Shown: positions 17,882 through 60,880 of the stretch, one piece after another
How the letters are laid out: each line of letters begins with the position of its first letter
How positions within the stretch are numbered: the stretch's first letter is position 1
Assembly (NCBI GenBank): GCA_002869565.1
Contig: PKUJ01000023.1
Location: 62,001 to 126,000 of the forward strand
Source of the DNA: Arcobacter sp.
GTDB taxonomy: Bacteria; Campylobacterota; Campylobacteria; Campylobacterales; Arcobacteraceae
Reading direction: 5' to 3'
Length of the DNA stretch: 64,000 nucleotides
Notes under the pieces: generated by a model
What the model was told of the DNA's origin: nothing
Database searches by the model: none
Seen by the model: only the letters and a program-made list of their open reading frames with translations
Made by a program: the position numbers and the translations under genes

Positions 17882-17887
17882 AAAAAT

Positions 17888-18589: not shown

Positions 18590-18599
18590 AATAAACTCT

Positions 18600-20983: not shown

Positions 20984-20985
20984 GT

Positions 20986-23303: not shown

Positions 23304-23393
23304 AGCTAGAGATAAACTTTACATAAGATGCATAAAAGCACGAAGATAATATAATATTCGATAATAAATGATTTAAAATGAAGGAAGAATTAA

Positions 23394-23648
23394 ATGGCTA
23401 TTTCTAGTAGTGAATTTAAACAAGTTTTAATTGATGGTTTAAAACTTGAAGATATAGAAATTGATGAGATAGATGATAAAGATACACTTTTTGGAGAAGA
23501 AGGATTAGGTCTTGACTCTGTTGATTCTATTGAATTAGTTTTAATTATAGAAAAAGAATATGGCGTGAAAATACAAAATCCAGAACAATATAATGAAATT
23601 TTTGCATCAGTAGAAAATTTATTAAAATATATAAATGACAATAAATAA
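23394..23648 (+). CDS. Acyl carrier protein
   Basis: 84 aa acidic protein with the phosphopantetheine Ser42 in GLGLDSVDSIEL. Preceded by GAAGGAAG and overlapping the ketosynthase gene by 14 bases. The second ACP of the locus and paired with the second ketosynthase set, mirroring the ACP-KS-KS-like order of the minus operon. Confidence 0.88.
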   Translation: MAISSSEFKQVLIDGLKLEDIEIDEIDDKDTLFGEEGLGLDSVDSIELVLIIEKEYGVKIQNPEQYNEIFASVENLLKYINDNK

Positions 23649-38667: not shown

Positions 38668-40005
38668 CTAAAAAACACTTTTTTTCTTCCTCTTCTGATG
38701 ATTTGCACTTTTAATACCTTTAGTATTTTTAGCCTCTTTATTGGAGGGTCTTTCATATTTTCTATTTGGTCTTATTGATATAGTATTTGTTAAAAATAGT
38801 TTACTCATCTCTTCAAATATTATCTCAATATCTTTATTACTATAAAATAGCTCAAAGCAGTAGTTTTTAACTATATTAAATGAAATAGATTTATTAACCT
38901 TTTGTTTAAACTTATTATCTATTTTACTAGATAGCTTTTTATTTGTACCAAGCGTAACTAAGGTCTCTAAATTACTTATAAATATTGTTGCATAAAAATC
39001 TTGTTTTATTGCAAGAGCTGATAAGCCTGTAAAGTTCTCTAATGATAATCTATTTTTTATAATCTCATAAAAACTCTCTATACCCCATCTTTTAAAGTAT
39101 AACTCTTTAAAATCATCTGTTTTTAATACCTTACTATCTAATACAGAAGTTCCTAGTACTTCAACCTCTCCATCATCTAAGATAACTTGTACAAATCTAA
39201 CTTCGATCTCTAATGGTAAGTTTTGCTCTATTATCTTATTATTTAGTTTTTTAGTAGTTGGTTTTAATGTTACGATAGTATCTTTAACTGAACTATTTCT
39301 ATCAAATAAAAATTGAATATCTTTATACCAACTTTTCTTCATTCTAATTAAAAAATCTGAATCATACTTAGATGTTATTGTTGTAAACAATTCATAAGAT
39401 GGGTAACCTCTATCCATAATTACTAAATCATTTTTTTGAAGTTTTTTAAAATTATTATCTTTTGCAATACTAATTTCACCTATTTTAGAATCTGTAATAA
39501 CAGAATCAACAGATATATTATTTAAAACATCATATAAAACAGAAACTCTAGCTTGTACTATTGTCTTAGATTTATCTTTATATTGATTAACAACATTAAT
39601 AGTATTAAACTCTTTTTGTATATCCTCATTAAAAGGCAAAGTTACCATACTTCCATCGATTGCTAATAACCTAAATCCTTTATATGTTTTATAATCATAA
39701 TCTCTATAAATAATATCACTAACATCATTTGCTAGTTCTTCAAAAGCTGTATAATTTAATTTATCCCTAGCTTGTGAATAAGCACTTTTAGAAATAGTCT
39801 CCAAATCTTCATCTAATAAAACACTTAAATGCTTTTGAGTTTCATTTAAGATATTTTGTATAGACTTAACACTTTTTCTAACAACTATTAATAATACTTT
39901 TGAAAATGGTAATTTTCTATCTCTTGTAAAATCTTTTTTATTCATTCTATTTTCACTTTTAAAACTATCAGATAGTATTTTATCTTTAAAAAACTCTAAA
40001 TTCAA
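38668..40005 (-). CDS. IS4-family DDE transposase
   Basis: 445 aa. Catalytic Asp in LLAIDGSMVTLP, second Asp in VIMDRGYPS, Glu in the YREK signature Y-x2-R-x3-E-x6-K (YFKRWGIESFYEIIKNRL). An N-terminal helical domain and a Lys/Arg-rich tail (KRKKKSVF) are as expected. The frame is unbroken, so the element may be active. The gene almost fills the element between its inverted repeats. Confidence 0.92.
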   Translation of the reverse strand: MNLEFFKDKILSDSFKSENRMNKKDFTRDRKLPFSKVLLIVVRKSVKSIQNILNETQKHLSVLLDEDLETISKSAYSQARDKLNYTAFEELANDVSDIIYRDYDYKTYKGFRLLAIDGSMVTLPFNEDIQKEFNTINVVNQYKDKSKTIVQARVSVLYDVLNNISVDSVITDSKIGEISIAKDNNFKKLQKNDLVIMDRGYPSYELFTTITSKYDSDFLIRMKKSWYKDIQFLFDRNSSVKDTIVTLKPTTKKLNNKIIEQNLPLEIEVRFVQVILDDGEVEVLGTSVLDSKVLKTDDFKELYFKRWGIESFYEIIKNRLSLENFTGLSALAIKQDFYATIFISNLETLVTLGTNKKLSSKIDNKFKQKVNKSISFNIVKNYCFELFYSNKDIEIIFEEMSKLFLTNTISIRPNRKYERPSNKEAKNTKGIKSANHQKRKKKSVF

Positions 40006-41710: not shown

Positions 41711-42097
41711 TTACAACTTCATTATATACTTAGAGAGAGTTTGAACTAATTCATGATTTAACTGATCTAAATTTATATCACTTTTATATGATTCATATTC
41801 ATTTAATATAAAAGCATAGTTAAGAAGATTTATTTTAAGATTTTTATCTTCAGTTAAAAGTATAATTTTTGATGATAATTCTTTTATTGTTTTTTGTTTT
41901 TCAAAAATATTATTGCAGTTTATAGTCAAGATATTTTCTGAAAGCTGATAAAATAGATTTAGTTTTTTGTCTCTTATCCACTTTTTCTTTTCTTGTTTTT
42001 GTGTTAATTTTGTCGTTACAATTGCATCAAATACTTTTGTAGTAATTGAACCTACAAGTATATTTGTAGCAGAATTTACTAAAGATAGTGATAACAT
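41711..42097 (-). CDS. Hypothetical protein, about 128 aa
   Basis: I choose the ATG at 42097, which has AAAGGA upstream; an in-frame ATG ten codons earlier lacks one. The product starts with a hydrophobic Ser/Thr/Val-rich helix (LSLSLVNSATNILVGSITT) and continues as charged helices (KLTQKQEKKKWIRDKKLNLFYQL). No family recognised. It is divergent from the iron cluster and its start lies about 65 bp from a Fur-box-like palindrome, so it may be iron-controlled as well. Confidence 0.6.
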   Translation of the reverse strand: MLSLSLVNSATNILVGSITTKVFDAIVTTKLTQKQEKKKWIRDKKLNLFYQLSENILTINCNNIFEKQKTIKELSSKIILLTEDKNLKINLLNYAFILNEYESYKSDINLDQLNHELVQTLSKYIMKL

Positions 42098-42161
42098 TGA
42101 GAATCCTTTTTTGATATTTATTATCATATACTATCTTTTTTTTCTTATACTATTATTAAAA

Positions 42162-42176
42162 CGATAACTATTATCA
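42162..42176. promoter_or_regulatory. Fur-box-like palindrome
   Basis: CGATAACTATTATCA, two mismatches from the 7-1-7 Fur consensus TGATAATnATTATCA. Located in the divergent region between the 128-aa minus-strand gene and the iron cluster. Confidence 0.65.
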
Positions 42177-42211
42177 TTAATATTATGTTAAGTTTTATAA
42201 TAGTATTATTT

Positions 42212-42226
42212 TGATACTTATTATCA
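42212..42226. promoter_or_regulatory. Fur-box-like palindrome
   Basis: TGATACTTATTATCA, one mismatch from the 7-1-7 Fur consensus, ending 10 bp before the start codon of the 47-aa gene. With the site at 42162 it gives two boxes 50 bp apart, well placed to repress the cluster when iron is plentiful. Confidence 0.72.
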
Positions 42227-42236
42227 AGGTATAAGC

Positions 42237-42380
42237 ATGAAAAAAGATATAAAAAATAATGGTTTTGAAAATTCACTTTTATATAAACATAATATTAAGA
42301 TACATAATAATTTATTGAAAGTATATATTCTTACTTTACTTATAAGTTCAATAATTCTTTTTATTAAGGGGTTTAATTAA
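42237..42380 (+). CDS. Small single-helix membrane protein, 47 aa
   Basis: A short reading frame beginning MKKDIKNNGFENSLLYKHNI and ending in a hydrophobic helix (VYILTLLISSIILFIKGFN). An AAGGTA lies just before the ATG. Directly downstream of two Fur boxes, so likely the first gene of the iron-regulated unit. It resembles nothing I can name; small membrane peptides are known from ferrosome clusters but no similarity is claimed. Confidence 0.5.
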   Translation: MKKDIKNNGFENSLLYKHNIKIHNNLLKVYILTLLISSIILFIKGFN

Positions 42381-42676
42381 TAGGAATTAATTAAAAAATT
42401 CAAAGTTTTTTAGAATTTTTTAAAATGAGTATTTCAAAAAGATTAGATATTAAAATTATTCTATTTCTCTGAATATTATTGAATCTTTAGATATTAGAGA
42501 TGGAATAAAACGATATGAATTAAATATATAAATTTACCATAATCATTTGATATGCACCTGATGTAATAAAATTATTGAAGAGTAGTAAATACTAGTTGTA
42601 AGAAAAAATAATCAGTCTTATTTTATAATAAGTTTTAGTTAAGATTTTGTAGGTAATTATACTCAAAAGGGATATT
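42381..42676. other. 296-bp gap with possible frameshifted remnant
   Basis: Two short open pieces in different frames, MSISKRLDIKIILFL from 42424 and then SLNIIESLDIRDGIKRYELN, could be one small gene broken by a frameshift. The rest is AT-rich without palindromes. AAAGGGA at its end serves the TTG start of the next gene. A promoter for the main operon may lie here. Confidence 0.35.
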
Positions 42677-42991
42677 TTGATTAGCACAGAAGAGATAATA
42701 AAAGTAGCAAGCTATTTTTCTATTATAGCACATGCTCCAGGGCGTCTTAGGGTTAGAGTAAATCCAAAGATAAAAAATGAATCTGGAACTATTAGTATAG
42801 ATGACATAGAAGATTTACCAAATAAAATTAATGGAATAAAAAGTATTAAGGTAAAGAAAATTATTGCTTCAGTAACTATACTTTATTCTCCTGATATCTT
42901 TCCTCCTGAACTTTGGGAAGATTTAGTACAAAATAGAAATCTAGAAGAATTAACACAATTAATAAATAGTTTAGCAAAGAAGGTCTCCTAG
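42677..42991 (+). CDS. HMA-like protein with Arg motif (ferrosome-cluster type)
   Basis: 104 aa, TTG start with AAAGGGA upstream. A basic motif AHAPGRLRVRVNPKIK (about 16-31) is followed by a ferredoxin-like beta-alpha-beta pattern (DDIEDLPNKINGIKSIKVKKIIASVTILYSP). No CxxC, so it is not a classic copper-type HMA domain. HMA_2-like proteins of this form occur beside P1B-type ATPases in iron-storage clusters. It ends one base before the ferritin-like gene starts. Confidence 0.7.
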   Translation: MISTEEIIKVASYFSIIAHAPGRLRVRVNPKIKNESGTISIDDIEDLPNKINGIKSIKVKKIIASVTILYSPDIFPPELWEDLVQNRNLEELTQLINSLAKKVS

Positions 42992-43666
42992 GTGGAAGTA
43001 AATGACAACGAAGAAATTCTTTTAGCAAAAAGAATTAATGTGTATAACGATGAAGCAATATATTCTCAAGCTTTAAGAATTGCTGTTTATGATGAATTTA
43101 AGGCATATGAGGTTTACACGAAGGTTTTAGAAAAGTTTGGCTTTTTACAACCATTTGTAAATATAAGAGAAGCAGAATCAAGACATTATAGTTCTTTGAT
43201 TCCTCTTTTAGAAAAATATGAAGTAGAAGTGCCAATTAATAATTGGGCTGAAAAAATAGAGATACCAAACACTTTTATTGAGTGTTGTGAGCTAGGAGTT
43301 GCAAGTGAGATTGAAAATATAGCAATGTATGATAATCTTCTTTCTCATGTTGTTGAAGAAGATATTAGAGATATTTTATTTAGACTTCAAGCCTCTTCTT
43401 ATAATAATCATTTGCCAGCATTTAGAAATTGTGTGATTAATTACTATTCAGTTTCTAATAATCAAAGTTTTAATCAAGAAGATTTAATGGAAAAATTGGG
43501 TGAGTATCAGGGTTTACTAGATGATCTAATGACAGGAGATTTAGATCAAAGTAAATTAACACAGATTTTGTCAAAGTTAAATATTTCAATGATTAGTGGT
43601 GTAGCATTTGGAGGAGCATCTCTTGCTTTGATAAATAGTTATATGAACAGTAATAACAAGGAGTAA
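42992..43666 (+). CDS. Ferritin-like di-iron protein
   Basis: 224 aa, GTG start directly after the previous stop, with AAGG upstream. A four-helix pattern with AVYDEFKAYEVYTKVL (Glu ligands), NIREAESRHYSSLIPLL (ExxH), and later ELGVASEIENIAMYDNLL followed by RLQASSYNNHLPAFRNC (Glu and NHxxAF). This is the ligand set of erythrin-vacuolar-iron-transport or rubrerythrin-like ferritins. The C-terminal 40 residues include a hydrophobic, Gly-rich stretch (SMISGVAFGGASLALINSY) that could insert in a membrane. Probably oxidises or stores Fe. Confidence 0.82.
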   Translation: MEVNDNEEILLAKRINVYNDEAIYSQALRIAVYDEFKAYEVYTKVLEKFGFLQPFVNIREAESRHYSSLIPLLEKYEVEVPINNWAEKIEIPNTFIECCELGVASEIENIAMYDNLLSHVVEEDIRDILFRLQASSYNNHLPAFRNCVINYYSVSNNQSFNQEDLMEKLGEYQGLLDDLMTGDLDQSKLTQILSKLNISMISGVAFGGASLALINSYMNSNNKE

Positions 43667-43669
43667 ATT

Positions 43670-43969
43670 ATGGCGTTACCATTTGTATTAGGATTAGCTT
43701 TAGGTGCAGGGGCAGTTATTGCTTTTAATAAATCTGATAAGATTAAAAATAAAGCATGTAATTTATTTGATAAATCAAAAGAAGTTGCAAATAGTTCTTT
43801 GGAAAAAGGTAAAGAAACTGTTGAAGATGTAAAACAAACAATTAATGCAACAGCAGAGTGTATAAAAGAGAAAAAAATACAATCAGAATTAGAAAAAGAA
43901 GAAACATTAGATACTGTTAAAAAAGTACCTACAAAAAGAGGAAGAAAACCAAAGGCTAAGGAAGAATAA
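43670..43969 (+). CDS. Small YtxH-like membrane protein with AT-hook-like tail
   Basis: 99 aa. N-terminal Gly-rich helix (LPFVLGLALGAGAVIAF), then a long charged helix (KNKACNLFDKSKEVANSSLE and on to about 80), and a basic end KVPTKRGRKPKAKEE. RGRKP resembles an AT-hook, as in histone-like proteins. This would suit a scaffold linking an iron-filled vesicle to nucleoid or mineral, but that is speculation. Overlaps the next start by one base. Confidence 0.7.
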   Translation: MALPFVLGLALGAGAVIAFNKSDKIKNKACNLFDKSKEVANSSLEKGKETVEDVKQTINATAECIKEKKIQSELEKEETLDTVKKVPTKRGRKPKAKEE

Positions 43970-44334
43970 TGAACGATGTATTAATAAATACTGGAGAACC
44001 AAGAAATATATTAGGACATATTGTAAGTGGAGCTGTGGCTTCAGCAATAATCTCTGGAACAATTAATTATAAGAAATTAAAAGATGAAAAAATATCTTCA
44101 AATGATGCAATTAAAGACACAGTTAAAAGAACATCACAAGGTGCTATTGCAACAGGTGCAGCAATTGCTACTGCAAATTATATTGGACAAAAAGGTGGTT
44201 TTTTTAAAGCTTTAAGTACAGCATCAATAGGAATGGCAGGAATATATGCTTTAGAAGTTATTGATGAGAAATTAGAAGAAAATTATAAGTCAATTTCTTG
44301 TGATGAAATAGACTCAATTAGTGAGGGTGAATAA
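43969..44334 (+). CDS. Glycine-zipper membrane protein
   Basis: 121 aa with two small-residue-rich helices: GHIVSGAVASAIISGTINY and SQGAIATGAAIATANYIG, a third near FKALSTASIGMAGIYALEV, and an acidic tail. Gly/Ala zippers like this pack tightly in a bilayer; small hydrophobic proteins are standard in ferrosome and magnetosome loci. Coupled at both ends (one-base overlaps). Confidence 0.7.
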   Translation: MNDVLINTGEPRNILGHIVSGAVASAIISGTINYKKLKDEKISSNDAIKDTVKRTSQGAIATGAAIATANYIGQKGGFFKALSTASIGMAGIYALEVIDEKLEENYKSISCDEIDSISEGE

Positions 44335-44657
44335 TGGAAAATAATTACGATATTAATATTGAAAATAGTAGGCGAGGACAAAATCAAAATATGAATATTA
44401 ATCACAATCCTTATATTAATCAATCATCAAATACAAATGTCTCAAACTCTCAAAATCAAAGTGGATTTAATAATGCAGACTTTATAAAAGGTGCTCTAAT
44501 AGGTGCAACTGTGACATTCCTTTTGACAAATAAAGGTGCACAAAAATCTCTAATGAAAGCTGCATCGAAAGGAACAGAACTATTTCAAGCTGGAATGGAA
44601 GAGTTAAAAGAGAGATATGAAGATGCTAGAGCTCAAATGGAAGCTAATCAAGAATAG
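44334..44657 (+). CDS. Asn/Gln-rich membrane protein of iron cluster
   Basis: 107 aa. The first 45 residues are Asn/Gln/Ser-rich and probably disordered (RRGQNQNMNINHNPYINQSS). One helix follows (DFIKGALIGATVTFLLTN), then an amphipathic helix (SLMKAASKGTELFQAGMEEL). YtxH-type proteins look similar in the second half. Located 5 bp before the ATPase gene. Confidence 0.7.
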   Translation: MENNYDINIENSRRGQNQNMNINHNPYINQSSNTNVSNSQNQSGFNNADFIKGALIGATVTFLLTNKGAQKSLMKAASKGTELFQAGMEELKERYEDARAQMEANQE

Positions 44658-44662
44658 AGACT

Positions 44663-46768
44663 ATGAGTAGACTATTTAAAAAAGTTCATAGTACAAAAAC
44701 TAGAGCAAGGTATAAATATTCTTTATTAAAAAATAGTTATCTTGATCCAAATATTTTAAAAGAAAATTTGGAAAAAATAGTTGGTATTCTTAATGTAAGG
44801 GTGAACAAAAAAGCTTCAAGTATTATATTTGATTTTGATAATGATTCAGTTTGTAATGATATTGAATTAAAATTAACAAATCTAAAAATCGATAATTTAC
44901 TAAATTTCAATAAAAAATTATTAGTTTGTAATTCTTGTATTAGTGATGATGAACCAAGTGTTAAAGGTATTGCAAGAGCCATAAGTGCTTTAGCTGTAGA
45001 AAGAGTTGTTAAAAATAATAATCTTAAAGCAAGTATTACTACAGCCGCTGCTATACCTATGTTGATAGATGGAACTAAAGAATTATTTTCTGAAGGTCTA
45101 ACTTCAAAAGTATTGGAAAGTGCTGCTGTTGGTATTTCTATTTATAGAAAAGATTATTTAGCTGCAAATTCAACTAATGTTATGTTAGAACTAGGTGAGT
45201 ATATTGAAGAAACAACAGTACATAAAAGTGATGATTTATTAAAAGAACTTTCAAAACCAAATGTTGAAGAAGCTTGGGTAGAAAAGAAAATTAATGGAAA
45301 AACAACTGAAATTTTAGTAAAAAGTGTTGATATTAAAATCGGTGATATTGTTATTGTTGGTATTGGCAATACTGTACCTGTAGATGGTCACATTATTGAA
45401 GGTAGTGGAAGCGTAAATGAAGTCTCTATGACTGGTGAAGCAGAACCTGTAGTTAAAAGTAGAGGGGATAGAGTTATTTCTGGAACCATAATTGAAGATG
45501 GAAGACTTAGAATATGGGCTGAACATGTAGGGGCAGATACTGCAACACAAAGAATAAAACAATATATTGAAAATTCAATAAATGAAAAATCATCAGTTCA
45601 AATAAAAGCAACGAAACTTGCAGATAAACTTGTTCCAATTACATTAGGTTTAGCAGGAGTTTCTTATCTTTTTACAAAAGATTTTGAAAGAACAGCCTCT
45701 ATTTTACAAGCAGATTATTCTTGTGCTTTAAAATTAGCTACACCTGTGGCCTTTAAGTCAACTATTTCAAAAGCAGGACATAATGGTATTATGATAAAAG
45801 GTGCAAAAGCTATTGAATCTTTACATAGTGCAGATACTTTTGTATTTGATAAAACAGTAACGCTAACAGAAGGTGAATTAGAAGTTATTTCAGTAGAGTC
45901 TTATGATGAATCTTGGACAAGTGAGCAACTATTAAACCTTACTGCTTCAACAGAAGAACACTATTTTCATCCTGTTGCTGAAGCAGTTGTTAAAGCTGCA
46001 AAAGAGAATGGTTTTGTACATATGCATCATGAAGAAGTTGAATTTATTGTAGCCCACGGCGTTAAAACAGAAGTTGATGGAAAACAAGTGATTATTGGAA
46101 GTAGGCATTTTTTAGAAGATGATGAAAAAATTGATTTCTCAATTTATAAAGAAAAAATAGATAAATCACTTAGTCTAGGTCAAACACTTTTATATATTGG
46201 CTTTGATGGAAAACTTTTAGGAACAATTGTCCTTGCTGATAATTTAAGAGCAAATGCCAAAGAATCAATATCAAAGTTAAGAGAATTGGGCGTAAAAAAT
46301 ATTGTTATGTTAACAGGAGATACCAAGAAAAAGGCCGAAATGATTGCTAATGAACTTGGTATTGATGAAATAAAAGCAGAACTTCTTCCCACAGATAAAT
46401 CAAGAATCATAAAAGAGCTTATGGCAGAAGGCAAAAAAGTAGCCTTTATTGGTGATGGAATAAATGATGCTCCAGCTTTGATTTCTGCACATATTGGGAT
46501 TTCTATGAGTAAAGGGGCAGATATTGCGAAAGCTACAGCAGATGTTTCTTTATTAAAAGATGATATAGCAGCAGTAGTTGAAGCAAAAGAGTTAGCAGAT
46601 AAGACTATGCAGTTGATAAACAATAACTTTAATACTACAGTAGGAATAAATTCTGCAATTTTAGCAAGTGCAACTTTTGGCCTATTTTCTCCTATTGTAA
46701 CTGCAGTTTTACATAATGGAACCACAATAGGGATGTTAGCAAATTCCATAAAAGGTGTAAAGGTATAG
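44663..46768 (+). CDS. fezB: P1B-type metal ATPase, FezB-like (ferrosome)
   Basis: 701 aa. The N-terminus has an Arg motif HSTKTRARYKY (9-19) and a degenerate HMA-like fold without CxxC. Then actuator TGE at 258-260, membrane ion site DYSCALKLATP (351-361), phosphorylation site DKTVTLT (396-402, Val instead of the usual Gly), HP (436-437) and GDGIND (597-602). The Arg motif together with the SCA-type ion site fits the P1B-6 group typified by FezB of ferrosomes, which loads iron into intracellular vesicles. The surrounding ferritin-like, HMA-like and small membrane genes and the Fur boxes support that. Last gene of the main operon. Confidence 0.82.
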   Translation: MSRLFKKVHSTKTRARYKYSLLKNSYLDPNILKENLEKIVGILNVRVNKKASSIIFDFDNDSVCNDIELKLTNLKIDNLLNFNKKLLVCNSCISDDEPSVKGIARAISALAVERVVKNNNLKASITTAAAIPMLIDGTKELFSEGLTSKVLESAAVGISIYRKDYLAANSTNVMLELGEYIEETTVHKSDDLLKELSKPNVEEAWVEKKINGKTTEILVKSVDIKIGDIVIVGIGNTVPVDGHIIEGSGSVNEVSMTGEAEPVVKSRGDRVISGTIIEDGRLRIWAEHVGADTATQRIKQYIENSINEKSSVQIKATKLADKLVPITLGLAGVSYLFTKDFERTASILQADYSCALKLATPVAFKSTISKAGHNGIMIKGAKAIESLHSADTFVFDKTVTLTEGELEVISVESYDESWTSEQLLNLTASTEEHYFHPVAEAVVKAAKENGFVHMHHEEVEFIVAHGVKTEVDGKQVIIGSRHFLEDDEKIDFSIYKEKIDKSLSLGQTLLYIGFDGKLLGTIVLADNLRANAKESISKLRELGVKNIVMLTGDTKKKAEMIANELGIDEIKAELLPTDKSRIIKELMAEGKKVAFIGDGINDAPALISAHIGISMSKGADIAKATADVSLLKDDIAAVVEAKELADKTMQLINNNFNTTVGINSAILASATFGLFSPIVTAVLHNGTTIGMLANSIKGVKV

Positions 46769-46780
46769 AAAATACATAAA

Positions 46781-46795
46781 TGATAATAGTTATCA
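46781..46795. promoter_or_regulatory. Fur-box-like palindrome
   Basis: TGATAATAGTTATCA, one mismatch from the 7-1-7 Fur consensus, 13 bp after the ATPase stop codon. Upstream of the two small membrane genes. Confidence 0.72.
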
Positions 46796-46826
46796 GTTAA
46801 CTTTAATTTTATTTCGATAGAATTAA

Positions 46827-46841
46827 TGATAATTATTATCA
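46827..46841. promoter_or_regulatory. Perfect Fur box
   Basis: TGATAATTATTATCA is an exact match to the 7-1-7 Fur consensus TGATAATnATTATCA, with the ribosome binding site AGGAGAT directly following at 46844. Implies a second iron-repressed transcript for the small genes 46854-47181. Confidence 0.8.
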
Positions 46842-46853
46842 ATAGGAGATTTT

Positions 46854-46973
46854 ATGCTATTTTTATTACCACTTGCAACAGTTTTAACAGCAGCACTTAC
46901 AATAAAAACAATAGATGGAACTGCAAAAACTATAAAAAGAAGAAAAAAAAGGAAAGAGAAATATGTCAATTGA
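46854..46973 (+). CDS. Small membrane protein with basic tail, 39 aa
   Basis: Short gene with AGGAGAT before the ATG. A hydrophobic helix (MLFLLPLATVLTAALTI) is followed by a strongly basic tail (KTIKRRKKRKEKYVN). Overlaps the 72-aa gene by 11 bases. Sits right behind a perfect Fur box, which supports its being real. Function unknown. Confidence 0.65.
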   Translation: MLFLLPLATVLTAALTIKTIDGTAKTIKRRKKRKEKYVN

Positions 46974-47181
46974 TTTAGAAGTACAAAAAGAAGCTGCAAA
47001 AATTGGAATGACAGCGACCTTAGGTGCGACAGTTGTAACTTCAATGTTTATGAAAAATAAAATTGCAAAAAAAGTACATATTGGCGCAGGAGTTGCATTT
47101 TGTGGATTTGCTTTATGGCATCATATGCTTTATCAACCCTCTAAAAAAAATAAGAAAAAACCTATTACTAAAACAGTATGA
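46963..47181 (+). CDS. Small two-helix membrane protein, 72 aa
   Basis: Two helices (AKIGMTATLGATVVTSMFM and KVHIGAGVAFCGFALWHHML) with histidines at the membrane edge (VHIG and WHHMLY) and a lysine-rich tail. The HIGAG...WHH spacing recalls small DUF4405-like haem or metal membrane proteins, but the likeness is weak. Preceded by AAAGGAAAGAG inside the 39-aa gene. Last gene under the downstream Fur boxes. Confidence 0.7.
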   Translation: MSIDLEVQKEAAKIGMTATLGATVVTSMFMKNKIAKKVHIGAGVAFCGFALWHHMLYQPSKKNKKKPITKTV

Positions 47182-49654: not shown

Positions 49655-51664
49655 CTATTCGATTGTAATACTATATTTTAAATCAAGTTGAGTGCTATAT
49701 TCCTTAGCAAAACCTAAAGCTATTCCTTGAGTCGTATAATCAACTCCCGCCTCACTTTGACTTACGCTTTTTACAGGGTATATATACATATCAACGCATT
49801 GGTCAAAATGAAAGTTAATAGTCTTATTTAGTGAAGGGTCTAAAATAGTAAGCTGCGAATTCTCAAAATATAGTGTGTCTTCAATATTATGTCCATTTAC
49901 AGTTAATACTTTATAATCTTCAAAATGAAAATTCCATTCTAAAAGATATTTTAGTGTTGCACTCTCTTCACTTTTAAGACTAATTTGTGATTCTATTTTA
50001 TTATTTTTAAATGTGAATTGTTTTGATAGTGTTGTATCTTTTTTATCATTTTTATAAATTCCACCATCTCGTTTTAAACTTATACTATCTTTAGTATTAT
50101 TTATAACTTGAAATTGTTGATTAGCAAAATCACCATACTCTTTAAAAGTACAAGATTTAAAACTCTCTTTGTCTAAATCAGAAGAACAAATATGGTCAAT
50201 TGCAGATTTTTTTAGATACCAATCTTGGAAAAGTTCTATGTCTTCATTTGTTGAAAGTAGATTATCATGAATAGTAGCTATTTCATCTTTGTCCTCTACT
50301 TTAATTATTTTTACTGTTTCATCAACTTTTTCAACTTTTTGGATTTTATCGTGGTAAGTTTCATGGTATCTTGTAAGAGTATTTTGAAGATTAAAACATT
50401 TATCTCTTAAATCTAGTTCTACAATTTGACCGCCTAATTTAGGGTCTATAATAGTGATTAAATTTGGTGTATAGATTTTATATTCTTCATGGGAATCCAT
50501 ATCTATATCGTATATCTTACATTGAGCTTCCATAGATAAAAGATTTTCACAATTTATGATATATCTATAGGCATTGTCTCTTAGGTTTGGAAGATATATT
50601 CCTCCAAAAACTCCATGCCAAAGTACATCATTACATTGGGTTCTAAAAAGAGAATCTTTAAAAGCTTCACTTTGATTTTGTGTTCTTGATAGCTCTAAAC
50701 TTCTTTTATGAATCCAGTTACTTTCATTGTATTTTATAAAAAAGTTTTTCCAGATACCACCTCTGATTAAATGCTCTTTATCCATATTATTGTGAATTAA
50801 TTCTAAATAATCATTTGCAATACTTGGTAAGGTTGACCATTCTCCCATCTCATGGTATGAAACTGTTGGAAGATATGATAGAGAAATTGCATTGTTTTTA
50901 TCATAGAAATCTGTAAATGTACTTACATTAATATTTTCATCTGCTAAACAAGATTCAAAAAAGTTTTTCAACCACTCTTGTTCATAAACTTTTTCATAAG
51001 TTTTTGGCCAAACACCAAATTTCTCTCCATCATCAAAGATAATTGCTGCATTTTCACCTTCATAACTTGCATAAGAGTTTAAGGTTTTCATTGTATTTTC
51101 AATTGAAGCAAAAGGAATAATATATCTTAAATCTTTATTTATTGGAAATAGTGAAATTTGGTTATTACTATTTTCAGTTATAAAGTATCCTTTTAATTTA
51201 TCTTTGTTGAAACCTGAGGAAATTAAGTGATAATCATCAACAATAACATAGTCAACATCACACTCTTTTAAATCATCAATAATGGAATCATCCCAGATTC
51301 TTTCTGTAAGCCAAAGACCTCTTGGTTTTTGATTGAAATGTTCTTTAATAAAATCAGAAAGCATATTAATTTGTTTGACTCTATCCACACTAGCAATTGA
51401 AGCCAAAATTGGTTCGTAATAACCACCTGTGAAAAATTCAATTTGAGGGGATAACTCTTTAATCAAGTTAAATAGTTTTGGATCATTTTTTAAAATAAAT
51501 TCAAAAAGCCAGCCACTAAAGTGTACTGAACATTTAAAATCAGGGTAAAGTTTTAAAATCTCAAAAAAAGGTCTATACGATTTTTCAATGATTTCATAGA
51601 TAACTCTATCAAAGTTATCAACAGGTTGATGGCAGTGTATACCAAATAGAAGATTGGTTTTCAT
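49655..51664 (-). CDS. GH57 4-alpha-glucanotransferase
   Basis: 669 aa. N-terminal GH57 catalytic domain: HCHQPVDNF (region 1), GGYYEPIL, WLTERIW with nucleophile Glu121, and IIFDDGEKFGVWP with acid/base Asp212. These positions match Thermococcus litoralis 4-alpha-glucanotransferase (Glu123, Asp214) well. The C-terminal half has the DUF1925/1926 beta-sandwich pattern. Rearranges maltodextrins and glycogen branches. Divergent from the GAPDH-led glucan operon, which it probably serves. Confidence 0.88.
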   Translation of the reverse strand: MKTNLLFGIHCHQPVDNFDRVIYEIIEKSYRPFFEILKLYPDFKCSVHFSGWLFEFILKNDPKLFNLIKELSPQIEFFTGGYYEPILASIASVDRVKQINMLSDFIKEHFNQKPRGLWLTERIWDDSIIDDLKECDVDYVIVDDYHLISSGFNKDKLKGYFITENSNNQISLFPINKDLRYIIPFASIENTMKTLNSYASYEGENAAIIFDDGEKFGVWPKTYEKVYEQEWLKNFFESCLADENINVSTFTDFYDKNNAISLSYLPTVSYHEMGEWSTLPSIANDYLELIHNNMDKEHLIRGGIWKNFFIKYNESNWIHKRSLELSRTQNQSEAFKDSLFRTQCNDVLWHGVFGGIYLPNLRDNAYRYIINCENLLSMEAQCKIYDIDMDSHEEYKIYTPNLITIIDPKLGGQIVELDLRDKCFNLQNTLTRYHETYHDKIQKVEKVDETVKIIKVEDKDEIATIHDNLLSTNEDIELFQDWYLKKSAIDHICSSDLDKESFKSCTFKEYGDFANQQFQVINNTKDSISLKRDGGIYKNDKKDTTLSKQFTFKNNKIESQISLKSEESATLKYLLEWNFHFEDYKVLTVNGHNIEDTLYFENSQLTILDPSLNKTINFHFDQCVDMYIYPVKSVSQSEAGVDYTTQGIALGFAKEYSTQLDLKYSITIE

Positions 51665-51802
51665 AGATTTCCTTCAATTTAATGAAATTTGCACATTGGT
51701 TTATGTTTCTTTTTCATTTTACTTAAATATAATAGTATCAGATATTTACAAATTGGTTACATTTTAATCTTTTGAAATTATAATGTAATTGTTTTTGTGT
51801 AT

Positions 51803-51808
51803 TATAAT
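51803..51808 (+). promoter_or_regulatory. -10 element of the GAPDH-glucan operon
   Basis: TATAAT preceded by TGTGTAT, about 25 bases before the GAPDH start. No clear -35 hexamer, as usual in Campylobacterota. The 168-bp divergent gap must also serve the minus-strand GH57 gene. Confidence 0.5.
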
Positions 51809-51832
51809 ATTAAATTATTAAAGGAAGACACT

Positions 51833-52828
51833 ATGGCATTAAAAGTAGCAATAAATGGGACAGGAAGAATAGGTTTAATAGCAGCGAAGATAGTTGCGCA
51901 AAGAAGTGATTTAGAATTAGTAGCATTAAACTCAACTTGTGATTTAGAGATGTTAATTTATTTATTAAAATATGATTCAGTGCATATGGGTGTGGCAGCA
52001 GAGATAATTGATGATGAAAACATTAGTATCAATGGTTGTAAAGTAAGAGTATTCTCTGATAGAGATCCAAATAATATTGATTTTGGTGGATGTGGAGCAA
52101 AAGTAGTTATAGAATGTACGGGTGCATTTTTAACAACTGAGAAATGTCAATCATATTTAAAAAATGGTGTTGAAAAAGTAGTTATGTCTGCACCTGCAAA
52201 AGATGATACACCAACTTATGTATTAAATATTAATACTGATGAATATAAAGGTGAAGCAATTATTTCAAATGCTTCTTGTACAACTAACTGTTTAGCACCA
52301 ATTTGTAAAGTATTAGATGATAACTTTGGAATTGAAAATGGTCTAATGACTACTATTCACTCATATACAAATGATCAAAATATTTTAGATGGTAAACATG
52401 CAAAAGATACAAGAAGAGCGAGAGCTGCAGCTGTTAATATGATTCCTACAACAACTGGTGCTGCAAAAGCTATTGCTTTAGTTATGCCTCAATTAAAAGG
52501 TAAATTAAACGGTTATGCAATGAGAGTTCCTACTGTAGATGTTTCTGTTGTAGATTTAACAGTTAATTTAACTAAAGAAGTTACAAAAGAAGATGTAAAT
52601 AAAGCTATGGAATTAGCAAGTACTTCTGCTTTTGATGGTTTAATTGAAATTGATACAGATAAAAGAGTTTCAAGTGATTTTATAGGAAGTTCTTACTCTT
52701 CAACATTTGTTCCTGATATGACTTGCGTAATTGAAGGTAAAACTGTAAAAGTTTTAGCTTGGTATGATAATGAGTGGGGATATACAAGTAGATTAGTTGA
52801 TATGACACTATTTGTTGGACAATATTAA
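51833..52828 (+). CDS. gap: Glyceraldehyde-3-phosphate dehydrogenase
   Basis: 331 aa from the ATG at 51833 with AAAGGAAG upstream; a longer frame back to 51797 is not needed. NAD loop INGTGRIG, SAPAKDD, catalytic Cys in NASCTTNCLAP, and TRRARAAAVNMIPTTTGAAKA. In this cluster it stands before phosphofructokinase and the glucan genes, so it may act with glycogen breakdown. Whether the genome has another gap copy cannot be seen here. Confidence 0.95.
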   Translation: MALKVAINGTGRIGLIAAKIVAQRSDLELVALNSTCDLEMLIYLLKYDSVHMGVAAEIIDDENISINGCKVRVFSDRDPNNIDFGGCGAKVVIECTGAFLTTEKCQSYLKNGVEKVVMSAPAKDDTPTYVLNINTDEYKGEAIISNASCTTNCLAPICKVLDDNFGIENGLMTTIHSYTNDQNILDGKHAKDTRRARAAAVNMIPTTTGAAKAIALVMPQLKGKLNGYAMRVPTVDVSVVDLTVNLTKEVTKEDVNKAMELASTSAFDGLIEIDTDKRVSSDFIGSSYSSTFVPDMTCVIEGKTVKVLAWYDNEWGYTSRLVDMTLFVGQY

Positions 52829-52853
52829 AATTAATTACAAAGGGTAACTTCTT

Positions 52854-53831
52854 ATGGCAATAGCTATTATGACTTCAGGTGGAGATTGTGCAGGTATGAA
52901 TCCTGCAATCAAGCAGTTTGTTGATTATTGTTTTAACAAAAAAATTAGACCTTATCTAATCTATGATGGATTAGAAGGTTTAATTGATGGAGATATAAAA
53001 GAAGCAACTCATGATGATGTAACTGGAATCATGCATGAAGGTGGAACAAAAATTAGATCTTCAAGATCTAAACGATTTTTTGAATATGAATATAGAAAAA
53101 TTGCATATGAAAATCTTCAAAGTCATGGAATCGACAAAATTGTTATACTTGGTGGTGATGGTTCTTTTAGAGCTTTAAATCAATTTCATCAAGATTTTGG
53201 AGTTAAGTTTGTAGGAGTACCTGCCACTATTGATAATGATATTTTTGGGACGGAATATTGTTTGGGTGTAGATACTGCTTTAAATGTTATAAGACAAGCA
53301 ACTGATGCAGTAAGAGATACTTCTTCCTCATTTAGAAGAGCTTGTGTTATTGAAACTATGGGACGAGATTGTGGATATTTAGCATTAGTTTCTGCTATTA
53401 CTTGTGGTGCAGAAGTTTGTATTGTTCCTGAACTTGAATATGATTTGGATGTTATTGGAAAAAGACTTAAATCAGAACTTGCAGATGGCAGAAAATATAT
53501 AGTTTGTATTGTTGCAGAAGGTTGTGCAGAAGATAAGTGTACAAGCACTAATCAACTAGTTCAATGGCTTGAAAAAGATATTGGAATTGAAACACGAGCA
53601 ACAATTTTAGGACATGTTCAAAGAGGTGGAAACCCTACTGTTTATGATAGACTAATGGCAGCAGAATTTGTAACACACGCTGTAGACAAACTTTTAAAAA
53701 ATGAAAAAACCACAGATGTAGTTGTTTATAACAAAAGTGAATTTCAATTTGTATCAATAGAGTATGTAAATTCACAAAAATATAAGATAAGAGAAGATTT
53801 GTTGGAGTTAGCAAGAAGATTAGTTAACTAA
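52854..53831 (+). CDS. pfkA: ATP-dependent 6-phosphofructokinase
   Basis: 325 aa. MAIAIMTSGGDCAGMNPAI, EGGTKIRSSRS, GGDGS (100-104, with Gly103 as in ATP-type enzymes rather than the Asp of PPi-types), PATIDNDIFGTEYCLGVDTA and RGGNPTVYDRLMAAEF. A Lys would be expected at the position after PATIDND in PPi-enzymes and is absent. Phosphofructokinase is generally missing in Campylobacterota, so a complete one here is notable. Follows gap by 25 bp. Confidence 0.92.
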   Translation: MAIAIMTSGGDCAGMNPAIKQFVDYCFNKKIRPYLIYDGLEGLIDGDIKEATHDDVTGIMHEGGTKIRSSRSKRFFEYEYRKIAYENLQSHGIDKIVILGGDGSFRALNQFHQDFGVKFVGVPATIDNDIFGTEYCLGVDTALNVIRQATDAVRDTSSSFRRACVIETMGRDCGYLALVSAITCGAEVCIVPELEYDLDVIGKRLKSELADGRKYIVCIVAEGCAEDKCTSTNQLVQWLEKDIGIETRATILGHVQRGGNPTVYDRLMAAEFVTHAVDKLLKNEKTTDVVVYNKSEFQFVSIEYVNSQKYKIREDLLELARRLVN

Positions 53832-53877
53832 GATACTATATACTAAAAGAATATATTTAATTACGAAAGGTTACGAG

Positions 53878-56361
53878 ATGAAAGCAATTGTACTAGCTGG
53901 AGGATTTGGAACAAGAATTCAACCATTGACGAATTCGGTTCCTAAACCTATGCTTCCAATATTAAATAGACCAATGATGGAACACATTATTTTAAAACTT
54001 AGAGATGAACTAGGTATCACAGATATTGGTATTTTGTTATATTTTAAGCCAGAAATTATCAAAGAACATTTTAAAGATGGTTCAGATTTAGGTATAAATA
54101 TTACATATTTTCAACCAGATGATGATTATGGTACAGCTGGAGCTGTTGCTTTTGCAAGAGAGTTTTTAGATGAAACTTTTATTATAGTAAGTGGAGATTT
54201 AGTTACAAATTTTGATTTTAAAAAGATTAAAAAATTCCATGAAAAGAAAAAATCGCAATTGACAATTACTTTAACCCCTGTTGAAGACCCATTACAATTT
54301 GGTGTAGTTATTGCAAATAAAGAAGATAGAATTGAAAGATTCTTAGAAAAACCAAGTTGGGGAGAAGTATTTAGTGATACTATTAATACAGGAATCTATG
54401 TAATAGAGCCACAAATATTAGATCATATTCCTTTTAAAGAAAATTTTGATTTTGCAAAAGATTTATTTCCTGCCTTAATGAAACAAGATATAGCTTTATG
54501 GGGATGTCCTATTGAAGGATATTGGAGAGACGTAGGTAATCCTGAAAGTTATCGAGATGTGTACAAAGACATATTTAACGGTGAAATAGTTCTTCCTTAC
54601 AAGGGTGAGAAAAAAGAAGTTGATAATGGTGTTATTTATTATGAAGCTGGAGTAGAAATAGATGATAAAATTAGAGTTGAAGGTACAGTACTTTTAGGAA
54701 AAAATGTAACAATCTCTGAAGGTGTGACTTTAAAAGATTGTGTAATTGGAGATAATTCAAAAGTTAAAAAACATGCAGAGATACTTAATACTGTACTTTG
54801 GGAAAATGTTTCAGTTGGAACAAAAACAAAATTAAACAATTCTGTAATTTGTAATGATAATGTTATTAAAGATGAAGTAAAAGCACCATTTGGTGTAATC
54901 ATGGCTGAAAAATGTTTAGTAAATAAAAAAGTATCTTTTGAAAAAGATATTATTATGTGGCCTGATAAAGTTGTAGAAGCATCTTCTGTTGTAAGTACAA
55001 ATATCATTTGGGGTAACAAATATAAATCATCTATTTTTGAAGATGGTGCAGTAATTGGTAGAACAAATATTGAGTTATCTTGTCAAATGGCAACGAAACT
55101 TGCAGAAGCATTTGGTTCAATTTTACCAGAGGGATCTTATATTTATATTTCAAGAGATTATCACAATACAACGTTTATGTTAAAAAGAGCATTTGTAAGT
55201 GGGATTTTATCAACGGGTGTAAATGTTGTTGATCCATACAATGTACCTTCAAATGTTATGAGACATGCTTTAAGTAAAAAAGATGAAATGGCTGCTGGTG
55301 TACACTTTAGACAGTCAGTATTTGATCCATCAGAAACAGAGATTATTTTTTATACTAGTGAAGGCTTAGTTGTAGATACTAAAGTTTCTCAATCTATTGA
55401 AAGAATTTTCTTTAGGGAAAACTTTAGAAGAGTTCAATATACAGAAATTGGAACAATTAGTGAAGATAAAGACTTAAGTGATGAATATATTAAACAAATT
55501 CAAAATTCATTTGATAAAAAATTATTTGAAGGTTCTGAGTTAAAAGTTGCAACAGATATTATGAATGGTTCAACATCTGATATTTATCCTACGATTATAA
55601 ATGAACTAGGAATAGAAAATATAATTTTAAATGCCCATAAAAGTAATAAAATTAAATCAAATGATGTTGTGAAAAATCAACAAAATATGAAAAATATTGT
55701 AAGGGCTATGAATCTTGATTGTGGTTTTTTAATTTATCCAAATGGTCATAAACTTCAAGTTGTAGATGATGAAGGTGAATTAATCTATGATTATAAACTT
55801 CTTTTAGTTGTTTTATATTTACTTGATAGATTAACAGATAAAAAACTAAAAGTACTTCTTCCTGCTTGGGGACCTGATTTTATTACTTATGAAAATATTG
55901 ATATTACAAGAGCAAAATTATCTAATTTTAAAGCAAAAGAGTTAGAAGAATATGATTTGATTGCAGATAGTGATGGTCATTTCTCTTTTAATGAATTTGG
56001 ATTAAATAGAGATTCGATTTTTACAAGTTTTAAATTATTAGAACTTTTAGAAAAATCAGGAAAGAAATTATCTAAAATAATTAGAAGTATTCCAAATTTT
56101 TGTTACAGTGGTGAGAATATTCCTTGTCCTAGTTCTTTAAAAGGAAAAATGATGAGAAAATTTCTTGAAGATGGTAAAGATAAAAAAACATCTTCTATTG
56201 ATGGTGTGAAAATTTGGATAAATGAAGAAGAATGGGTATTAATGGTACCTGATCAATATACTGAATTTTTAAATCTTTATGTTCAAGCAGGAGATGAAAA
56301 AAGTGCAGGAAAGATTTTTTATCAATATCAAGACAAAATAGAAAAGTGGATCAGTGAATAA
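53878..56361 (+). CDS. Sugar-phosphate nucleotidyltransferase fused to degenerate phosphohexomutase
   Basis: 827 aa. N-terminal nucleotidyltransferase (1-235): LAGGFGTRIQPLTNSVPKPMLPI, FIIVSGDLVTNF, and EGYWRDVGNPESY. Left-handed beta-helix hexapeptide repeats follow (about 240-380, KIRVEGTVLLGKNVTISEGV). The C-terminal phosphohexomutase region (about 390-827) lacks the catalytic TxSHNP: the equivalent reads AGVHFRQSVFDPSETEIIFY. The metal-loop region reads LIADSDGHF. Fused proteins of this layout exist in cyanobacteria and others. Likely makes an NDP-sugar (glucose or mannose) for the glucan pathway. TTACGAAAGG precedes the start. Confidence 0.85.
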   Translation: MKAIVLAGGFGTRIQPLTNSVPKPMLPILNRPMMEHIILKLRDELGITDIGILLYFKPEIIKEHFKDGSDLGINITYFQPDDDYGTAGAVAFAREFLDETFIIVSGDLVTNFDFKKIKKFHEKKKSQLTITLTPVEDPLQFGVVIANKEDRIERFLEKPSWGEVFSDTINTGIYVIEPQILDHIPFKENFDFAKDLFPALMKQDIALWGCPIEGYWRDVGNPESYRDVYKDIFNGEIVLPYKGEKKEVDNGVIYYEAGVEIDDKIRVEGTVLLGKNVTISEGVTLKDCVIGDNSKVKKHAEILNTVLWENVSVGTKTKLNNSVICNDNVIKDEVKAPFGVIMAEKCLVNKKVSFEKDIIMWPDKVVEASSVVSTNIIWGNKYKSSIFEDGAVIGRTNIELSCQMATKLAEAFGSILPEGSYIYISRDYHNTTFMLKRAFVSGILSTGVNVVDPYNVPSNVMRHALSKKDEMAAGVHFRQSVFDPSETEIIFYTSEGLVVDTKVSQSIERIFFRENFRRVQYTEIGTISEDKDLSDEYIKQIQNSFDKKLFEGSELKVATDIMNGSTSDIYPTIINELGIENIILNAHKSNKIKSNDVVKNQQNMKNIVRAMNLDCGFLIYPNGHKLQVVDDEGELIYDYKLLLVVLYLLDRLTDKKLKVLLPAWGPDFITYENIDITRAKLSNFKAKELEEYDLIADSDGHFSFNEFGLNRDSIFTSFKLLELLEKSGKKLSKIIRSIPNFCYSGENIPCPSSLKGKMMRKFLEDGKDKKTSSIDGVKIWINEEEWVLMVPDQYTEFLNLYVQAGDEKSAGKIFYQYQDKIEKWISE

Positions 56362-58432
56362 AAAACTATATCTGTCATTTTTATGGCATATGCACCAACC
56401 TTACTATAAGGATGATTGTACAAATACGACATTAATGCCTTGGGTATTTTTGCATGCAATTAAAGATTATTATGACATTCCTTGGTATTTGGAGAAATTT
56501 CCAAATATCAAGGCTACTTTTAATTTAGTTCCTTCTTTGCTTGTTCAACTTCAAGATTATATTGAAGATAATGCAAATGACAAATTTATGAAAATTCTAA
56601 AAAAAGATGTTTATAGTTTAACAAATAAAGAAGAACTTTTTTTAAGTGAATATCTTTTTTTAGCTAATGAACAACATATGGTAAAACCATTAGAAAGATA
56701 TCATGAGTTATTATTAAAATATAAATCTCAAAATCAATCTTTTGAGATATTCTCAAAAGAGGAACTTATTGAATTAGAAGTTTTATTCTTGTTAAGTTGG
56801 TGTGGTAATTATTTAAGACAGAATAATGAATTAGTCATTTTATTACTTAATCAAGGCAGAACTTTTTCTCAAGAACAAAAGAATGAGTTAATTGAGGAAT
56901 TATTTTTATTTTTAAATGAACTTATTCCATACTATAAAAAATTGCAAGATTCACAACAAATTGATATTTCAACAACTCCTTTTTATCATCCAATTTTACC
57001 ACTTTTAATTGATAGACAAAGTGCAAAAGATGCAAAAAATGATGTTGTTTTACCAAAATCAAGTGCACAGTATAAAGATTTTGCAGCTTTACAAGTAAAA
57101 ACAGCAGTAGATTTTTTTGAAAAAACATTTGAAAAAAAACCAAAAGGTTTTTGGCCAAGTGAAGGAAGTGTAAGTCCTAAAACTATCTCTTTATTGGCTT
57201 CAAATAATGTTAAATGGGCTTGTAGTGATGAAGAGATACTTTTCAAAACATTAAAAAATTCAAATAAAGAGCTTTTATATAAACCATATACACTTAAAAC
57301 AGAAAATGGAAATGTAAATTTATTTTTTAGAGATAAATATTTAAGTGATTTGATCGGTTTTGCATATAGTAAAAAAAGTGCAAAAGAAGCAGCTTCTGAT
57401 TTTGTATCACATTTGAAAAATATCTATTTGAATGCGCCAACTTCTCCAGTTGTACCTGTTATTCTTGATGGAGAAAATGCTTGGGAATTTTATCCAGATA
57501 ATGCACAACCATTCTTTGAAGAGTTATATAAACTTCTTGATAAACAAGATTGGTGTGAGACAGTTTTATTTGATGATGTGCCTAATATTGAAGATTTAGA
57601 GTTTACTGAACTTAATACTTTAGCTAGTGGAAGTTGGATAAATGGTAACTTTGACATTTGGATTGGATGTGATGAAAAAAATAGAGCTTGGGAACTTTTA
57701 GATTTAACAAAAAATCGTTTTGATAAAGTACAAAATTCTCTTAGTGAAGAGACTTTAGAAAAAGTCAAAAAAGAGTTTATGATTGCCCTTGGAAGCGATT
57801 GGTTTTGGTGGTATGGAGATGATCATTATACTGAACTTAATCATCAGTTTGATGAGCAGTTTAGAGCACATCTTAAAAATGTATTTGAGTTAATGAACGA
57901 AGAAGTACCTACAGAAATTTTTGTACCCATAGTTAAAAAAGAGAAAATAAATCAAATCAATATTTTGCAAAAAGATTTTATATCACCTGTAGTTGATGGG
58001 AATATGAGTAATTTTTTTGAGTGGCTAAATTGTGGAAGAATGGATATAAAAAAAGAGTTTAGTACTATGGACTCCTCAGCTTCAATTGTTGAGTATCTTT
58101 ATTATGGTGTTGATAAGCAAAACAATTTATATTTATATTTAAAGGGTAACAAAGTACCAAATAAAGAGATTTTGGAACTTAGAATAACTCTTAATGATAA
58201 AATATTTATATTTGATATAAAAAAAGGAATAGGTACTGTTGAACAAAATGGTACTTATTTTGATTTAGCTTTTGGAAATGGAATTGAAATAAAGATTTAT
58301 GATTTTAAATTAAAAAAAGTAAATTTTTCTTTTGAACTTTATGAAGATAAAAAGAAAATACAACGGTATCCACTTTATGATGAGACAGTTTTAGATTTTG
58401 AAAATCTATTTCTTAAAAGTTGGTATATATGA
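56354..58432 (+). CDS. GH57 alpha-amylase/amylopullulanase-type hydrolase
   Basis: 692 aa, GTG start overlapping the previous gene by 8 bases. LSFLWHMHQPYYKD (region 1), FWPSEGSVSPKTI with nucleophile Glu270, and VILDGENAWEFYPD with acid/base Asp372, then WGNFDIWIG-like WINGNFDIWIG. This is the COG1449 amylopullulanase-like branch, distinct from the glucanotransferase at 49655. Probably debranches or cuts the stored glucan in the cytoplasm (no signal peptide). Confidence 0.85.
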   Translation: MNKKLYLSFLWHMHQPYYKDDCTNTTLMPWVFLHAIKDYYDIPWYLEKFPNIKATFNLVPSLLVQLQDYIEDNANDKFMKILKKDVYSLTNKEELFLSEYLFLANEQHMVKPLERYHELLLKYKSQNQSFEIFSKEELIELEVLFLLSWCGNYLRQNNELVILLLNQGRTFSQEQKNELIEELFLFLNELIPYYKKLQDSQQIDISTTPFYHPILPLLIDRQSAKDAKNDVVLPKSSAQYKDFAALQVKTAVDFFEKTFEKKPKGFWPSEGSVSPKTISLLASNNVKWACSDEEILFKTLKNSNKELLYKPYTLKTENGNVNLFFRDKYLSDLIGFAYSKKSAKEAASDFVSHLKNIYLNAPTSPVVPVILDGENAWEFYPDNAQPFFEELYKLLDKQDWCETVLFDDVPNIEDLEFTELNTLASGSWINGNFDIWIGCDEKNRAWELLDLTKNRFDKVQNSLSEETLEKVKKEFMIALGSDWFWWYGDDHYTELNHQFDEQFRAHLKNVFELMNEEVPTEIFVPIVKKEKINQINILQKDFISPVVDGNMSNFFEWLNCGRMDIKKEFSTMDSSASIVEYLYYGVDKQNNLYLYLKGNKVPNKEILELRITLNDKIFIFDIKKGIGTVEQNGTYFDLAFGNGIEIKIYDFKLKKVNFSFELYEDKKKIQRYPLYDETVLDFENLFLKSWYI

Positions 58433-58444
58433 TTAGGAGAAATT

Positions 58445-60867: not shown

Positions 60868-60880
60868 AAGGAACAAATAT

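Follow-up and report, generated by a model that had tools for sequence, protein, structure and literature searches.

Experimental evidence for ferrosomes comes from a handful of species. One of the described systems, fezABC, belongs to D. magneticus, a member of the Desulfovibrionaceae, and Shewanella putrefaciens is reported to carry a six-gene fez operon (Grant et al. 2022). The fez operon of Rhodopseudomonas palustris also has six genes, RPA2333-2338 (PMC12016538), and that of C. difficile is repressed by Fur (PMC12574912). Two further features are helpful for recognizing such operons: a conserved HN motif in TM6 of P1B-6 ATPases (PMC9374683), and FezC, a haem b protein related to DUF4405 (PMC11334425). 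Here, we describe a fez-like operon from an Arcobacter genome, in which a P1B-6-type ATPase is encoded together with a ferritin-like protein and a distant relative of the magnetosome protein MamC.

Gene content, ATPase phylogeny and distribution

The locus is in a genome of 3.49 Mb in 42 contigs, and we analysed it within a 64-kb stretch of DNA (the window, to which all unlabelled coordinates refer). The fez-like block covers positions 42677-47181, with all genes on the forward strand, and its first six genes (42677-46768) either overlap or are no more than a few bases apart. The first of these (42677-42991) has a TTG start and encodes a 104-aa HMA2-like protein with the motif APGRLRVRV; its match to PF19991 (E 2.7e-5) is below the cut-off, and a homologue is present in nearly every relative locus among the 60 Campylobacterota loci compared. 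Next are genes for the ferritin-like protein, for SM1 (43670-43969), an operon-conserved small membrane protein of 99 aa with one N-terminal helix by hydropathy, for the MamC-like protein, for SM2 (44334-44657), a YtxH/DUF6110-like membrane protein of 107 aa, and for the ATPase. The gene for SM3 (46854-46973), a membrane peptide of 39 aa, overlaps that for the FezC-like protein, and the two are a single ORF in the Arcobacter plasmid CP134847. Neither SM1 nor SM2 has a Pfam match to PF19605 (DUF6110), and the link of SM2 to this family is remote, running via profiles: a profile built from SM2 reaches, at 3e-8, the DUF6110 protein adjoining the Deinococcus ATPase, and that protein does belong to PF19605. 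An earlier note on this DNA had described a tightly packed set of HMA-like, ferritin-like and P1B ATPase genes with genes for small membrane proteins, and we find exactly such a set, with five small membrane proteins.

Genes of other kinds are found elsewhere in the window. A DUF3373 porin-like gene (1006-2631, reverse strand) is interrupted by an in-frame stop, which splits it into two pieces of 362 aa and 177 aa that share a frame. The region 5780-25387, with ketoacyl-synthase-like, aromatic-amino-acid-lyase (18600-20132) and glycosyltransferase-like genes, resembles an aryl-polyene-type cluster, an assignment made by eye with the lyase checked. Carbohydrate genes at 49655-62521 (glycogen synthase-like, phosphorylase-like, GAPDH, phosphofructokinase) resemble, again by eye, those of glycogen metabolism.

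The ATPase (44663-46768, forward strand; 701 aa) is a heavy-metal P1B pump by its Pfam and NCBIfam matches, of the P1B-6 type and FezB-like, with the Arg motif KTRARYKYS, DYSCALK in TM4 and LHNGTT in TM6. The N-terminal HMA_2 domain, which scores 31.9 bits with PF19991 (cut-off 30), carries this Arg motif and has no CxxC, as had been claimed from the letters of the sequence. The HN motif in TM6 is common to the Campylobacterota FezB-like ATPases listed, and the motif core is common to 58 aligned Campylobacterota homologues. In phylogenies, the ATPase falls in a clade (IQ-TREE support 100/99, FastTree 99) with pumps of Mailhella (Desulfovibrionaceae), Firmicutes, Deinococcus, Rhodobacter capsulatus, Rhodomicrobium, Vibrio and Azospirillum, fez-type references that are named proxies rather than proven FezB sequences. 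This clade is apart from the two other P1B pumps of the genome and from all other sampled P1B groups. The earlier note had called for a phylogeny and took a grouping with copper or zinc pumps as the outcome that would speak against it; the ATPase lies outside those pumps, and on the tree and the motifs we rejected a Cu or Zn pump. The closest named relatives are the copies on Arcobacter plasmids (72-76% identity), and the ATPase of a Sulfurospirillum contig groups near that of the window in the FastTree phylogeny.

In about 10 of the 60 Campylobacterota loci (L154:3642-5795, L161:8360-10540, L170:8226-10430 and about seven more), the gene for another P1B ATPase immediately precedes the fez-type operon. 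These second pumps have an N-terminal Arg motif but SCPC in TM4 and an IHIGHT-like motif in TM6, and they form a long-branched clade of their own.

The operon is far from a lone case. The ATPase is present at E <= 1e-95 in 135 of 397 sampled Campylobacterota genomes, from several families. At the more permissive E <= 1e-60, which lets in other P1B pumps as well, 74 of the 104 genomes of the window's own family have a match. Most of the 60 Campylobacterota loci share one recurring order, namely HMA2, ferritin-like, SM1, MamC-like, SM2 and ATPase, followed by SM3 and/or the FezC-like gene. Hence, the gene set is not due to chance. The ferritin-like gene is found in 54 of these loci, in one of them just as a fragment at a contig end. 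Outside Campylobacterota, the same layout with the ferritin-like gene is found in Pseudothauera and in one gammaproteobacterial MAG, and related operons without this gene are found in Azospirillum, Vibrio, Hahella, R. capsulatus and Cereibacter. Those of Azospirillum and Vibrio have six genes from the same families as in the window (HMA2, MamC-like, YtxH-like, ATPase), and this number agrees with the fez operon of R. palustris. In the Mailhella locus, the ATPase gene is accompanied by genes for a DUF6110 protein and for an HMA2 protein that ends in a FezC-like tail. Iron genes are found near some of the relatives' operons: FeoA and TonB receptors in Cereibacter, and TonB receptors in an Arcobacter plasmid.

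Two of the loci (L057 and L209) are on 133-kb Arcobacter plasmids from chicken meat, CP134847.1 and CP129951.1; CP134847 is the one with TonB receptors near the operon, and its ATPase gene is split into two ORFs. The version in the gammaproteobacterial MAG (L067:5460-10404) is Arcobacter-like and includes the ferritin-like gene, reflecting either transfer or mis-binning.

Ferritin-like, MamC-like and FezC-like proteins

The ferritin-like gene (42992-43666, forward strand) encodes a two-part protein. Residues from about 25 to 148 are predicted to form a ferritin-type four-helix bundle (pLDDT about 97) and match PF09968 at 22.9 bits, with a cut-off of 22, and profile searches class the protein as DUF2202/rubrerythrin-like; the best solved match, by both sequence and fold, is the DUF2202 protein MJ0754 (3q4n, Foldseek E 5e-6). 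Similarity to stand-alone DUF2202 proteins encoded on non-Arcobacter plasmids stops at residue 148. The remainder, from about residue 150 to 224, is a membrane module: the last 75 residues share homology with the C-terminal module found in Pro-rich membrane proteins of operons without a ferritin gene (Desulfarculaceae, Cereibacter, R. capsulatus and Vibrio), in a comparison whose E-values cover five sequences only. The most likely reading, in our view, is that a ferritin domain was joined to a pre-existing fez-type membrane protein. All five candidate metal ligands (E35, E62, H65, E106 and H140) are present in the window copy. Across 57 homologues, with the window included, the five are complete in 33 and incomplete in 24, and their loss is mainly in one group of lineages. 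Since the ligands are incomplete in some lineages, ferroxidase activity cannot be general. The earlier description of a ferritin-like di-iron protein is thus supported for the fold (PF09968, 3q4n), whereas a di-iron site cannot be assigned to every lineage.

The MamC-like membrane protein (43969-44334, forward strand; 121 aa) matches NF038051 with an E-value of 6e-7. The same profile matches 22 of 32 operon-associated homologues at E < 0.01, with a best value of 5.6e-15. Five reversed sequences gave no MamC match, and we rejected an artefact of Gly/Ala composition on this ground. Nonetheless, the window copy scores 29.6 bits, far below the curated cut-off of 100, and the relationship to MamC is therefore one of distant kinship, as judged from the profile, and not of membership. 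The protein belongs to the operon in several phyla. A literature search for MamC homologues, DUF2202 or ferrosomes in Arcobacter found nothing specific.

The last gene of the block (46963-47181, forward strand) encodes a two-helix membrane protein of 72 aa that is FezC-like. Two His residues spaced 14 apart, H39 and H53 in the window copy, are invariant in all 22 FezC-like homologues, and both are on the same helix of the predicted two-helix hairpin. DUF4405 matches 19 of the 22 homologues at E < 0.1 (best 2.9e-5); the match of the window copy (E 0.013) is below the Pfam cut-off. By hhalign (E 2.9e-8), the hairpin also shares homology with the C-terminal part of HMA2-FezC-type proteins, namely those of Mailhella, Duodenibacillus, Azospirillum and Hahella. 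We predict that this protein binds haem b. FezC-like hairpins fused to a SpoIIAA-like domain are encoded at three other loci (L154:10128-10805, L161:3244-3867 and L166:8056-8628).

Fur-like boxes, a Fur-family pseudogene and signs of decay

Scanning the 64-kb window for the 15-mer Fur-box-like pattern TGATAATNATTATCA gave only four matches with no more than one mismatch, at 42112, 42212, 46781 and 46827, and all four flank the fez-like block. On the upstream side, the scan found the palindrome TGATATTTATTATCA (42112-42126; one mismatch), whose counterpart in the relative L139 is TGATATTAATTATCA, and TGATACTTATTATCA (42212-42226; one mismatch), just 5ʹ of a 47-aa ORF. Between them is CGATAACTATTATCA (42162-42176), which has two mismatches and whose position is kept in L139. 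On the downstream side are TGATAATAGTTATCA (46781-46795; one mismatch) and the perfect TGATAATTATTATCA (46827-46841), both with offsets conserved in relatives; all five are given on the forward strand. The idea that Fur-box-like palindromes bracket the block therefore holds, with one more box if two mismatches are allowed. The downstream pair has a nearly constant offset 3ʹ of the ATPase gene in about ten relatives, as compared with 0.5% in shuffled sequence. Of the 60 loci, 26 have an upstream box scoring at least 12/14 (2.4% of shuffles) and 17 have a downstream one (0.5% of shuffles). By these comparisons of sequence, the Fur-like boxes are real and conserved. About 2.1 kb 5ʹ of the first box is a DDE transposase gene (38668-40005, reverse strand).

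The 47-aa ORF (42237-42380, forward strand) encodes a membrane peptide with a single hydrophobic helix and has homologues in nine further loci. We considered and rejected the possibility that it is the N-terminus of a broken Fur gene: relatives keep it as a separate ORF directly 5ʹ of an intact Fur-family gene. In the window, the regulator gene is a pseudogene (42381-42600, forward strand) with large deletions and stops. Aligned to the intact 148-aa Fur-family gene of L139, this segment yields fragments only, and its PF01475 match contains two stops (contig positions 104469-104579, window 42469-42579). The closest relatives have the gene in intact form. Of the 60 loci, 27 have a Fur-family gene at the head of the operon, 48-214 bases from the HMA2 gene in 18 of them and about 2.1-2.8 kb upstream in the other nine. 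Three other Fur-family genes remain in the genome.

It is striking that codon 399 of the ATPase gene (45857-45859, forward strand) is GTA, for Val, so that the phosphorylation motif reads DKTVT. Gly is found at this position in all homologues examined; DKTVT occurs in this genome alone, and the 55 other P-type ATPases checked all have DKTGT. The motif is invariant, and G399V would thus be expected to impair a P-type ATPase. If V399 is real, the pump is likely to be weak or dead in this strain; V399 could also be a sequencing or assembly error. The rate of amino-acid change points in the same direction. N/S for the operon, counted as codon changes that alter the amino acid over silent ones, is 117/194 on the window branch, as compared with 24/109 on the sister branch (p 4e-5) and with 26/92 in two control genes of the same genome, TsaD and Dxr (p 0.002; these two controls only). 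Another candidate control, 49655-51664, is absent from the closest relatives and was dropped. These ratios indicate relaxed constraint on the operon in the window lineage, and the system is probably impaired in this strain. All of the operon genes other than the Fur remnant keep full-length open frames, and the N/S of 0.6 is far below neutral. Hence, selection has acted on the operon through most of its history.

Interpretation and comparison with known systems

What would such an operon do? We consider it quite probable that this is a fez operon of the ferrosome type, that the variant is one typical of Campylobacterota and that it is losing function in this genome. Gene content, motifs, phylogeny, the domain fusion, the conserved boxes, the pseudogene and G399V are all read from the sequence, and from it we infer iron storage as the function of the operon. 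The operon is likely to be functional in relatives, and it is doubtful that it is functional in this strain. Motifs, gene content and phylogeny support the earlier proposal that this P1B-6 operon is of the ferrosome type and includes a ferritin-like protein. The operon is widespread in Campylobacterota, and in this strain it is probably impaired, in view of the Fur pseudogene, G399V and the accelerated amino-acid change. The FezC-like and MamC-like identities, the domain fusion, the Fur-family gene and its decay, and G399V all go beyond that earlier note.

An alternative explanation is that the operon encodes a P1B-6 efflux platform in the cytoplasmic membrane that works in the manner of PacL1-CtpC, exporting excess Fe(II) or another metal without any storage organelle, with the small membrane proteins as scaffold or chaperone of the pump. 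P1B pumps assemble into membrane platforms with DUF1490 small proteins, and genes for the related DUF6110 proteins accompany those for P1B-6 pumps (PMC9374683). SM2 has a relative among the DUF6110 proteins, and the sequence of a P1B pump would look the same if it exported metal from the cytosol. However, the HMA2, MamC-like and FezC-like proteins and the ferritin-like domain go beyond a pump and PacL pair, TM4 has no CPC of the kind in CtpC, and the Fur boxes suggest induction at low iron, which fits ferrosomes better than efflux; we regard efflux as unlikely. It is more improbable still that the pump handles another metal, such as Zn, Mn or Co, with the ferritin-like domain as a structural scaffold. 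The 24 homologues with incomplete ligands do suggest that iron oxidation is not essential to the operon, and a solved deletion mutant of MJ0754 holds Zn, but the clustering of the ATPase with fez-type pumps, the Fur boxes, and the FeoA and TonB receptors beside relatives in Cereibacter and an Arcobacter plasmid all argue for iron.

A further possibility concerns this strain only and is compatible with a ferrosome-type operon in relatives: the operon here may be a non-functional relic whose Fur-like boxes now act without their own regulator. The reduction of the Fur paralogue to fragments, the replacement of the catalytic Gly399 solely in this genome and the excess of amino-acid change on the window branch are in its favour. 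The full-length frames of all other genes, the three other Fur-family genes in the genome and a ratio so far below neutral weigh against it, and we place a complete relic slightly below an even chance.

For a ferrosome-type operon that is intact, as in relatives, we propose the following. Gene order and the conserved boxes suggest that a dedicated Fur-family repressor and the Fur boxes would turn the operon on at low iron. By homology to fez operons, the small membrane proteins, the MamC-like protein and the membrane-anchored ferritin-like protein may shape and fill a membrane compartment. From its class, the P1B-6 ATPase would pump Fe(II) into this compartment, and the HMA2 protein could pass on metal. 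The FezC-like bis-His protein, whose haem ligands are candidates, and the di-iron ferritin domain would control the Fe(II)/Fe(III) state. More tentatively, and with somewhat greater doubt than confidence, we suggest that iron storage in Campylobacterota is a hybrid of the protein type and the membrane type, united in one organelle by the addition of a ferritin-like di-iron domain to a membrane protein of the ferrosome, and that the MamC-like member reflects a membrane-protein ancestor shared by ferrosomes and magnetosomes.

We found no report of granules in Campylobacterota in a literature search that lay outside the primary ferrosome papers. An intact version across much of this phylum would make organelle iron storage common there. 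The ferritin-fused anchor would provide a genetic handle on iron oxidation in ferrosomes, the MamC-like member would provide a concrete link to magnetosomes, and the decaying copy described here would serve as a natural case of loss for comparison.

Among solved proteins, MJ0754 (3q4n/3q4o) shares its fold and core helices with the window protein, and only the latter is fused to a fez-type membrane module. With magnetosome MamC, the operon shares a profile match, and no magnetosome genes were seen near the window operon. The PacL1-CtpC zinc efflux platform likewise encodes a small membrane partner with an HN-motif P1B pump, but CtpC has CPC in TM4, and there is no FezC-like, ferritin or MamC-like partner. 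The FezC/DUF4405 cytochromes (PMC11334425) resemble the window protein in having two invariant His residues on one helix of a short membrane hairpin, whereas the window chain has no HMA2 domain. The fezABC operon of D. magneticus and the fezAB operon of C. difficile belong, judged by proxies, to the same larger ATPase clade; the proxies lie in the sister sub-clade, their loci have two or three genes, neither a ferritin-like nor a MamC-like gene was seen among them, and the Desulfovibrionaceae proxy, Mailhella, has a DUF6110-type small protein and an HMA2-FezC protein. The six-gene fez operons of R. palustris and S. putrefaciens, like the operon described here, combine a P1B-6 ATPase with several small membrane proteins. 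As compared with these by description rather than by alignment, the Campylobacterota operon adds a DUF2202 ferritin domain, encodes the FezC hairpin as a separate small gene and, in many relatives, has a Fur-family gene of its own.
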